DNA from: a bacterium HR17
GTDB lineage: Bacteria > Armatimonadota > Fervidibacteria > Fervidibacterales > Fervidibacteraceae
Reading direction: 5' to 3'
NCBI GenBank assembly: GCA_002898575.1
Contig: BEHT01000020.1
Coordinates: 1-61,771, forward strand
Length of the DNA: 61,771 nucleotides
In this document: positions 27,251-30,701 of the stretch, one piece after another
Layout of the letters: each line of letters begins with the position of its first letter
How positions within the stretch are numbered: the stretch's first letter is position 1
Translations under genes and position numbers: made by a program
The notes under the pieces: model-generated
Told to the model about the DNA's origin: nothing
Databases searched by the model: none
What the model saw: the letters and a program-made list of their open reading frames with translations, nothing else

Positions 27251-27820
27251 TCAACTCGTAAACAGGAACGACACGCGCTCTGCCCATTCGGTGTCGGGAT
27301 AGTTGTTCCACACCTGCGTCCACGCTGCCTTGAGCCCTTCAAGGTCACCGCCTTTGTAGCGGGCGACGCCGAGCCAGAACAAGGCTTCCGCGGCGACGCT
27401 GGGGTAGCGTTGCGCTGCCTCTTCAAACCGCTGAGCGGCGCTTGCAAAGTCGCTGCGATGGAACGCTGCAAACCCTTGCACCAGCACCAACTTGCCCAAC
27501 AGTCGCTCTTTGCCGATGAAGCCCTCAAAACGCAACTGCTCTACGCCGTCACCGTCAGCGACCAACAGCGTGGGTGTCCAACGGACATGATATTGTTGCG
27601 CCACTTGTTGAGCGTCGGCGTCCTCAAGGATGTTGAGTTTGACAGGGACAAAGGTTTGTGTGATAGCGTGCGCCACTTCAGGGTCAGGGTAGACAGCGGC
27701 ATCCAGCCGCACACACCCGCCTCAGCGGGGCGCGGCGGAAAAATCGGCGAAAACGAGTTTACCTTCCTGTTTCGCCCGGCGCAAGGCGTTTTCCCATTTC
27801 GTCTCCCACTGAATTGCCAT
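27251..27820 (-). CDS. Thioredoxin-like protein with in-frame TGA, probable selenoprotein (UGGC motif)
   Basis: A frame of 190 codons from ATG 27820 (behind GGAGGTGAG, 7 nt) to the stop at 27251 is broken only by TGA at 27722-27724, codon 33. Read through, it gives a thioredoxin-fold start (residues 1-32, with LVFADFSAAP), then U33-G-G-C36, aligning with the thioredoxin CxxC, then the continuing fold (YPDPEVAHAI, FVPVKLNI, VRWTPTLLV with the cis-proline) and a C-terminal TPR-like half (GFAAFHRSDFASAAQRFEEA). Just after the TGA, GCGGC-TGGAT-GCCGC can form a hairpin whose loop has G at position 2, 18 nt past the TGA, as in bacterial SECIS elements. Without readthrough a GTG at 27712 would give only a truncated protein lacking the active site. 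A Sec apparatus is not in the window, so recent nonsense mutation remains possible. Confidence 0.72.
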
Positions 27821-27878
27821 TGCTCACTCACCTCCGCCGCAAAAGTTTAGCCCACCGATAGCGTTTCGTTAGAGCGCC

Positions 27879-28961
27879 TTAACTTGTCCGTGCCTTCTCC
27901 ATCGCCCAACATGCAGCGGCAGCAGGCGCCAAAAAGAGCGCGGGGTCATCGTCAAATTGCCGTCCCATGCTCTCCAACGGCACCTCGTGCTGACGCAGCA
28001 ACGCGATTGCCGCGTCACCCGCCCACCAAACGACCTCGTGACAGTCGGCGATGCCTGACGCTGCCAGTTGGCTCCGCAAAGTGACGGTTTGTTTTGCGTC
28101 GGACAGCAGCGGGAACACGACCGTCGCCCGCGTGTGGGTCAGCCGGGTTAGCACGGTGACAGTGTGGTGGCTGATGCCCCGGTGACGGGGGCGGGGATCG
28201 GCGAAACTGAGGCGGGGTGCGACGACCGCGCGCCCATGCAAATCGTTCACGGCGTCAATCAACCAACCCATCTCCACGCCCGAAAAACCTAAGGGCGTCG
28301 CAGTGCCTAAATGCCCTGGTCCTGATGCGACGATGGCGGCGTCGGCTTCCAACGCTTTGGCGCACAGCAGCGCCGTGTAGGCGTTGACGCACTCTACATC
28401 GCCGCCGAAGGCTTGCCCGCAAGTGATGGTGACATCCAGCAAGCCAGCGGTTTTCAGCCGGCGCACCAACCGACTGAAAGGCAAGGGCAACGCAGCGCTG
28501 TCGGTCATGATGTAAGCGACTTTGGCGTCGGGTTTGACAACTTTGATGCCAGCGGCAGCCGGAGCGAGGAAACTGTGCAAGGGACAAAGGATGACGGGTA
28601 ACCCGTCCAACGCGTCGGTGCGCAACAGCGCGTCCCGCAGTGGGTTGCCCTGCTCCTCGGCGCAAGTGACATTGACTTGCAGCGGCGTGTAGCGGAGTTT
28701 GACGATGTGCCCCGACTGGCGCGCCTCGCAATTGGGACGGGTCAGGTTGGCGACGACAAAGTGATAGCCGCCGGTGCCCAAGCCTAACTCCACTGCGATG
28801 ACATTGAGCAGGACTGCGTCGCCCTGTCGCACCTCACCCGTCAACTCCGGGTAGGCGACGGCGCGGGCGACTTCGCCGTCTTCCGTCCCGACCTCCAACT
28901 CCTGCACCGCGTCGTCGTGATAGGTCACGGCGCGGACAAAGCCGGCAATGAACCGCCGCAT
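27879..28961 (-). CDS. DUF3866 family protein
   Basis: 360-residue protein of the DUF3866 family, of unknown function. Family-like features are the N-terminal segment with repeated VGTEDGEVARAVAYPELTG, then VAVELGLGTGGYHFVVANL, PVILCPLHSFLAPAA, and TITCGQAFGGDVECVNAYTALL. The glycine-rich VASGPGHLGTATPLGFSG suggests a nucleotide- or phosphate-binding loop, but that is only a guess. No signal peptide. It is divergent from the LarA-like gene. I do not assign a function. Confidence 0.82.
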   Translation of the reverse strand: MRRFIAGFVRAVTYHDDAVQELEVGTEDGEVARAVAYPELTGEVRQGDAVLLNVIAVELGLGTGGYHFVVANLTRPNCEARQSGHIVKLRYTPLQVNVTCAEEQGNPLRDALLRTDALDGLPVILCPLHSFLAPAAAGIKVVKPDAKVAYIMTDSAALPLPFSRLVRRLKTAGLLDVTITCGQAFGGDVECVNAYTALLCAKALEADAAIVASGPGHLGTATPLGFSGVEMGWLIDAVNDLHGRAVVAPRLSFADPRPRHRGISHHTVTVLTRLTHTRATVVFPLLSDAKQTVTLRSQLAASGIADCHEVVWWAGDAAIALLRQHEVPLESMGRQFDDDPALFLAPAAAACWAMEKARTS

Positions 28962-29034
28962 TTAACGCCACCTCGCTCCCTACTGGCAAACGGTTTTTTT
29001 GGACATTTGGCATCTCACGGCGATCGTCGCACGC

Positions 29035-29040
29035 TACAAT
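29035..29040 (+). promoter_or_regulatory. Possible -10 element of the LarA-like gene
   Basis: TACAAT lies 74 nt upstream of the proposed GTG start in the DUF3866/LarA-like divergent region. A well-spaced -35 box is not visible (nearest TTGGCA is 22 nt upstream), so support is weak. Confidence 0.3.
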
Positions 29041-29108
29041 TTGGCGCGGTAGCGCGTCCTAAAGTAATGCGTGAAGTCTGCGTCAGGTGCAAGGGTGGTG
29101 ACTTGGTT

Positions 29109-30701
29109 GTGGTGACCGTGACGGAGCGGGCAGCGTTGGTCACCGTCGTGGAAAGCGAACGGCAAAAGTTTTTGCTGCATTACGGTGAAGGGTTCTTGTG
29201 GGAAAGTTTGCCTGTCGGGACTCGGGTCATTTACCCGCCTCCGCCCCTTGAACCCATCGCCGATGTGGACGCCGCTATTGAGCGGGCGTTAGAAAACCCC
29301 ATTAACGCCGACCCTTTATCAGCGCAACTGCGGCGCGGCATGCGGGTAACGATCGCCTTTGATGACCTGAGTTTGCCCTTACCCCCGATGCAAGCGCCCG
29401 ACATTCGTCAACGCATCATTGAGCGCCTCTTGCAAAAGTGTGCCGAGAAGGGCGTGGACGATGTGCACCTCATCGCCGCCATCGGCTTGCACCGCAAGAT
29501 GACGACAGACGAATTGCGCCATCAGGTCGGCGACCGCGTGTTGAAAGCTTTTTACCCGCTGCGGCTTTACTGCCATGACGCCGAAGACACCCGTAACCTC
29601 GTGTTTATGGGTAAGACGGAGGTAGGTGAAGAAGTATGGCTCAACCGACGCGTCGCCGAGAGCGACTTGGTCATCTATGTCAACATCAACCTGTCACCGA
29701 TGGACGGCGGGCACAAATCGTTGGTGACGGGGTTGACCAACTACGCCACGCTGCGCCACCACCACAACGCCCCCATGTTGCTGACCTCATTTTACATGGA
29801 CCCGCCCCGTTCACCTTTTCACGGCGTTTTGCAGCGGCAAGGGCGGTTGATTGAGCGGCACATCCGCCACTTCCAGATTGAGACCGTCCTAAACACCGAC
29901 ACTTTCCCTCCCCTCTTTGCCTTTTTACAAAAGCGTGAGAGCGAGTGGACGGTGTGGGACAAAACTTGGTTCAGCGTCGTCCGCACGGTGTGTCGTTGGG
30001 CGCCCTTTGAGCTCAATTGGCGCGTTTGGCAGGGGGTGCGGGCGCCCTACGGCGTCATCGGCATTTACGCAGGTGAAGTGGAAAGCGTGCACGAACGCAC
30101 TTTGCAACGCTTAGCCGAGCAGCAAGAGGTGGAAGTCAACGGGCAGACCGACATCGTGATCTGCGGCGTGCCTTACCTTTGCCCCTACAATGTCAACAGC
30201 GTCATGAACCCGATTTTGGTTTTCTGTTTGACGCTGGGCTACACCTTCCACCTGATGTCCATCGGCAAACCGCTTTTGCGGCAAGGCGGTGTCCTCATCT
30301 TCACACACCCGCTCTACGAACGCTTTCACGAACAGCACCATCCCAGTTATGTGGATTTTTGGCGCTATGTGTTGCCACAAACGCGCGACCCCAAAGAGAT
30401 GGAACAGCGGTTTGAAACAGCCTTTGCGACCGATGAGCGTTACATTCAGGCTTATCGCCGCGACTACGCGTATCACGGCGTCCATCCCTTCTACATGTGG
30501 TATTGGGGCAGTTTGGGAGCGATGTATGCGGGCAAAGTGATTTTCGTCGGTGCCACCAAACATGTCGCAGAACGGTTGGGTGTGGAGACAGCACCGTCGT
30601 TGCGCGAAGCCATCGCCATGGCGAAAAGTTTTCTCGGCAACGCTGACGCGTCCATCACTTACTTTCACTTCCCGCCGATCTTTTCCTGTCGGGTGCGTTG
30701 A
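29109..30701 (+). CDS. LarA-like (DUF2088, lactate racemase domain) protein
   Basis: About 530 residues with similarity to the nickel-pincer racemase LarA. The central part has AFDDLSLPLPPM, AAIGLHRKMTTDEL (matching the G-x-HR-x-MT helix with its catalytic His), GEEVWLNRRVAESDLVIYVN and GGHKSLVTGL (matching SGGRK with its lysine). The second catalytic-histidine segment (PHxxAG in LarA) reads NLSPMDGG, so His is missing and the protein may not be a standard racemase. It is ~100 residues longer than LarA, with a large C-terminal half rich in aromatic residues. LarB, LarC and LarE are not adjacent. GTG 29109 follows AAGGGTGG by 8 nt; ATG 29067 in the same frame is an alternative without a binding site. 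Confidence 0.72.
   Translation: MVTVTERAALVTVVESERQKFLLHYGEGFLWESLPVGTRVIYPPPPLEPIADVDAAIERALENPINADPLSAQLRRGMRVTIAFDDLSLPLPPMQAPDIRQRIIERLLQKCAEKGVDDVHLIAAIGLHRKMTTDELRHQVGDRVLKAFYPLRLYCHDAEDTRNLVFMGKTEVGEEVWLNRRVAESDLVIYVNINLSPMDGGHKSLVTGLTNYATLRHHHNAPMLLTSFYMDPPRSPFHGVLQRQGRLIERHIRHFQIETVLNTDTFPPLFAFLQKRESEWTVWDKTWFSVVRTVCRWAPFELNWRVWQGVRAPYGVIGIYAGEVESVHERTLQRLAEQQEVEVNGQTDIVICGVPYLCPYNVNSVMNPILVFCLTLGYTFHLMSIGKPLLRQGGVLIFTHPLYERFHEQHHPSYVDFWRYVLPQTRDPKEMEQRFETAFATDERYIQAYRRDYAYHGVHPFYMWYWGSLGAMYAGKVIFVGATKHVAERLGVETAPSLREAIAMAKSFLGNADASITYFHFPPIFSCRVR

Follow-up and report, generated by a model that had tools for sequence, protein, structure and literature searches.

A predicted selenoprotein combining a thioredoxin fold with a TPR-like C-terminal domain in an Armatimonadota genome

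The window, i.e. the whole 61,771-nucleotide stretch analysed here, is contig BEHT01000020.1 (positions 1 to 61,771) of bacterium HR17 (GenBank assembly GCA_002898575.1; Armatimonadota), whose draft genome comprises 3.15 Mb in 75 contigs and is 96% complete. A sequence-only reading had proposed a probable selenoprotein gene at 27251-27820; these coordinates proved correct, and the strand, which it had left unstated, is the minus strand. The features of the locus are as follows:

27251..27820, minus strand: predicted selenoprotein gene, Sec at codon 33 (translation with TGA read as U, Pfam, homologs, structure model)
within 27251..27820, minus strand: thioredoxin-fold domain (about residues 1-112) and TPR-like helical C-terminal part (about residues 113-189)
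27827..27835, minus strand: ribosome-binding site GGAGGTGAG upstream of the ATG (read from the sequence)
27722..27724, minus strand: in-frame TGA, codon 33, the U of UGGC (translation; TGA or Cys aligned in homologs)
27696..27710, minus strand: SECIS-type hairpin GCGGC[TGGAT]GCCGC, +12 to +26 after the TGA
27251..27253, minus strand: true terminator TGA, codon 190 (translation)
27879..28961, minus strand: DUF3866 (PF12982) gene, the upstream same-strand neighbor
28917..30701, plus strand: gene with a lactate racemase N-terminal (LarA-like) domain, the divergent neighbor

The frame opens with an ATG at 27820 and runs on the minus strand for 189 codons to a TGA stop, while a plus-strand reading of 27251-27820 gave no sensible frame and was rejected. 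The ribosome-binding site that had been called good is indeed present at 27835-27827; it is strong and ends 6 nt before the ATG, with the GGAGG core at a distance of 10 nt. Translation bore out the claim that the TGA at codon 33 is the sole internal stop, in the context R-U-G-G-C-V, with the predicted selenocysteine as the first residue of a UxxC motif (U33-G-G-C36). The same gene order, with the DUF3866 gene upstream on the same strand and the LarA-like gene diverging, is seen in Armatimonadetes bacterium SKYB36 (genome G003, locus L049), a member of the same family whose ortholog is 55% identical and has a TGA at the same codon.

Comparison of the window gene with this ortholog gave dN 0.41 and dS 1.49 upstream of the TGA and dN 0.45 and dS 2.97 downstream of it; dS is near saturation here, such that the direction of these values is trustworthy and their magnitude is not. 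Likewise, substitutions per codon position were commonest at the third position on both sides (0.35/0.29/0.52 upstream and 0.38/0.31/0.61 downstream). Thus, the impression that the coding pattern is alike on either side of the TGA held up, with dN/dS well below 1 and purifying selection on both sides, and together with the retention of the TGA in homologs this means that the frame is real beyond chance. An alternative is that the interruption yields two products through termination and restart, namely a 32-residue peptide and a 153-residue protein beginning with the GTG at 27712; the listing of open reading frames does give 27251-27712 with a GTG start, and automatic annotation would probably pick it. 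However, such a restart would cut the thioredoxin fold at its active site, with the loss of the first strand and the entire UxxC motif; moreover, the 32 upstream codons are equally constrained and homology runs across the TGA. We consider this alternative highly improbable and favor a single product read through codon 33.

To recover relatives we searched genome contigs, where a single-protein query produced no match and an alignment query succeeded. We thus assembled 15 full-length proteins sharing the two-part thioredoxin and TPR-like plan, the window gene included, and examined codon 33 in each. TGA occupies exactly the same column in 12 of the 15: eight read UGGC (seven from Armatimonadota and one from a Deltaproteobacteria MAG), two read UYGC (both Armatimonadota) and two near-identical members from Nitrospirae MAGs read UAGC. 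Two others have Cys in place of Sec, one in genome G046 (CVSC) and one in a Rubrobacteraceae MAG (CGGS). The remaining member (L070, G249:C85:45665-46216) has neither, its LVGS motif having lost both catalytic residues; its genome contains two selB genes and a tRNA-Sec. Eight further Armatimonadota genomes contain the TGA form; seven of them have selB, tRNA-Sec or both, and the eighth (G108), in which neither was found, is 73% complete. In the Cys-carrying G046, neither selB nor tRNA-Sec was found at the thresholds used. No relatives of the gene were found in phage records. Shorter thioredoxin-like proteins of Armatimonadota (L016, L017 and L021, in genomes G016, G045 and G007) also display a TGA at the first position of the CxxC site (UGYC, UGWC).

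These data bear on the possibility that a former CxxC gene acquired the TGA, either through a recent nonsense mutation or through an error in base calling, as a single base separates TGA from the Cys codons TGC and TGT, and the assembly is a draft. This is refuted by 11 other, distant homologs (28-54% identity) from separate assemblies, all of which have their TGA at the matching codon. The constraint on both sides of the TGA is also a strong argument against a pseudogene, as it persists downstream of the stop, and we assign this explanation a negligible probability; an in-frame UGA within a conserved reading frame is instead the configuration of bacterial selenoproteins of the UGA/SECIS type.

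Downstream of the TGA, the GCGGC/GCCGC hairpin with the loop TGGAT lies where it had been described, with a loop G at +18 and another at +19 (positions 27704 and 27703). It fits the bacterial SECIS type, in which a stem-loop closely follows the UGA and its small apical loop has a G near the start. We evaluated it against synonymous-codon shuffles, scoring how often an equally good hairpin with a loop G 16-37 nt after the TGA arose; the scoring rule is our own and the members are related, hence the resulting P values are not to be multiplied. The hairpin alone modestly exceeds chance in the window gene (P=0.045), and comparable values were obtained for the G003 ortholog (P=0.017) and for L051 (0.044), L067 (0.065), L064 (0.035) and L066 (0.050), with P<=0.003 in the two Nitrospirae members. 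Certain TGA members show no hairpin signal by this simple criterion (L060, P=0.51; L069, P=0.38; L065, P=0.20), and the two Cys homologs gave P=0.23 and 0.54 in the same test. The SECIS signal in single members is weak. In the four members sharing the +18 register, 93% of the stem cells are standard pairs as against at most 57% when the 3' arm is slid, and one G-C stem pair is replaced by U-A through compensating changes in both arms, albeit in four sequences only. No curated SECIS family applies, as a scan of the window with Rfam at gathering thresholds returned no match.

The earlier reading had proposed looking for selA, selB, selC and selD in the genome, and all four are present. Profile searches of the host genome recovered selB on contig C34 (409.5 bits against a cut-off of 242), selA on contig C14 (581 bits) and selD on contig C2 (385 bits), and a tRNA-Sec with the anticodon UCA is encoded on contig C7 (78.3 bits); from its sequence and fold the latter has acceptor and T arms that read as 8/5 and an encoded CCA. 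The host selD (L116, G000:C2:7112-8038) is itself a selenoprotein gene with an in-frame TGA in the motif GGUACK, followed by the hairpin GGTCC[GGC]GGACC, whose loop GG, at +18/+19, occupies the register seen for the window gene. A further alternative is that the UGA is read as Cys or Trp by some other tRNA, e.g. a SelC-like tRNA-Cys, and the genome does code for an extra tRNA-Cys with tRNA-Sec-like features (see below). However, the GCA anticodon of this tRNA cannot pair normally with UGA; moreover, a canonical tRNA-Sec(UCA) and complete selA/selB/selD are present, and TGA serves as an ordinary stop both at the end of the selenoprotein gene and in the neighboring ABC permease gene. This makes a Cys or Trp reading exceedingly unlikely.

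The full Sec machinery, along with the retention of TGA or Cys at this codon in distant relatives, argues that the UGA at codon 33 is read as selenocysteine, and neither of the findings named beforehand as fatal to this idea (a genome devoid of Sec machinery, or homologs with neither Cys nor TGA) holds. On these sequence-based grounds we place the probability that the gene encodes a bacterial selenoprotein at roughly 0.96, in support of the original proposal of selenocysteine insertion. As a ribosome reaches codon 33, SelB carrying Sec-tRNA-Sec(UCA) would bind the downstream hairpin; Sec would then be inserted instead of termination, and the UGA at codon 190 would end the protein. Since termination is in competition with Sec insertion, some of the product would be the 32-residue fragment.

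The product had been described as thioredoxin-like. This is correct for its N-terminal half, and the TPR-like C-terminal half had been missed. Pfam searches recovered Thioredoxin_2 (PF13098; E=2.2e-14, 54.1 bits against a cut-off of 27), together with Thioredoxin_7, and TPR_6 in the C-terminal part (E=7.2e-8). A confident AlphaFold2 model (mean pLDDT 96.5, pTM 0.89) likewise places TPR-like helices after a thioredoxin fold, with U33 at the active-site position directly before the helix formed by residues 34-43. The nearest solved structures are DsbD gamma, other thioredoxins and the Trx-TPR protein YbbN. With DsbD gamma and thioredoxins the protein has its fold and the placement of the active site in common (PDB profile E=7e-15 for 2fwe; target-normalised Foldseek TM 0.73-0.75), but, unlike DsbD gamma, it has no membrane part, possesses a TPR-like domain and has Sec in place of the first Cys. 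Escherichia coli YbbN (PDB: 3qou; Foldseek rank 3, E=2.5e-7) has the same two-part plan of an N-terminal thioredoxin and a C-terminal TPR domain, but only this general plan is in common (18% identity, overall rmsd 11.9), the TPR part being much shorter in our protein (about 77 residues). By eye, no signal peptide is recognisable in the product. Taken as a DsbD-gamma/thioredoxin-type domain, the N-terminal part would use U33 as the nucleophile and Cys36 as the resolving residue. We infer that the protein is most likely a cytoplasmic selenol/thiol-disulfide reductase, with the TPR-like helical domain probably holding a partner or substrate.

Related thioredoxin-like domains occur in the NCBIfam seleno_TsoB, Trx7/PDZ and VPGUxxT selenoproteins (E=2e-12 to 3e-6), whose architectures and Sec motifs differ from those of the window protein; it falls far short of the cut-offs of all three models (45.8 against 805, 26.4 against 300 and 31.5 against 275, respectively), and none of the NCBIfam models gives a score up to its threshold. 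A 2026 inventory lists 119 prokaryotic selenoprotein families, one of which, the thiol:disulfide interchange family, is defined by PF13098 and UxxC, with WP_011366075.1 as its representative (Table 1, PMC13188914); this family has been recorded in Geobacter and Syntrophus (PMC1794560). The window protein has in common with it a Thioredoxin_2 domain and Sec as the first residue of UxxC, a likeness at the level of domain and motif. As the domain and motif are already known from this inventory, the Trx-TPR selenoprotein is an addition to a known class and not a new kind of system. None of the entries of the inventory names the Trx-TPR form (PMC13188914), which is perhaps a new subfamily. We see about even odds that it constitutes a distinct, uncatalogued subfamily, mostly with Sec, distributed across several phyla and employing two SECIS registers, the loop G lying near +18 for the branch of the window gene and near +25 for the Nitrospirae and most of the FNPGUGGC branch. 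Selenoproteins of Armatimonadota were not described in any of the literature we searched, and this gene thus adds one to the lineage. It is a well-supported predicted selenoprotein, conserved in several phyla, that is probably mis-annotated as a truncated protein without its active site, and its Sec, Cys and catalytically lost forms offer a clean set for asking why Sec is kept.

Outside the window, a second Rfam tRNA-Sec match above the cut-off (55.9 bits) was recovered in the host genome at G000:C22:52032-52122 (minus strand; L115 1123-1032, minus strand). This tRNA has the anticodon GCA, U73 and a long variable arm; ARAGORN calls it a tRNA-Cys(GCA), and its candidacy as a second selC was rejected. 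An ordinary tRNA-Cys is also encoded in this genome on contig C47. Of 291 genomes surveyed in the phylum, the host alone has a full-length tRNA of the C22 type, and weaker second tRNA-Sec matches in G058, G105 and G255 were rejected as tRNA-Ser. The selC* tRNA-Cys reviewed in PMC7609411 has GCA, U73 and modified 8/4 arms with a bulge; the C22 tRNA resembles it in GCA and U73, but its acceptor and T arms read as 7/5, not as 8/4 with a bulge. About 40 nt downstream of this tRNA, on the same strand, lies a further gene:

G000:C22:51731-51991 (L134; L115 about 991-729), minus strand: SelW-like Rdx gene with the motif CVPC, TGC being the codon at the site in question

In all ten SelW-like relatives found in the phylum, TGA stands at this TGC site. 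Selenocysteine at the sense codon UGC of this homolog was considered and is disfavored, as the hairpin is missing and the C22 tRNA has U73, an identity base of CysRS (PMC7609411). As a SECIS-type hairpin is found in each of the ten TGA relatives (L135-L144) and not in the TGC copy, the latter is probably a plain Sec-to-Cys replacement. The hairpin is conserved across the ten Armatimonadota relatives, for the most part as CCGTC[AGTNT or GGTCT]GRCGG, and is placed at about +15 to +17 relative to the TGA.
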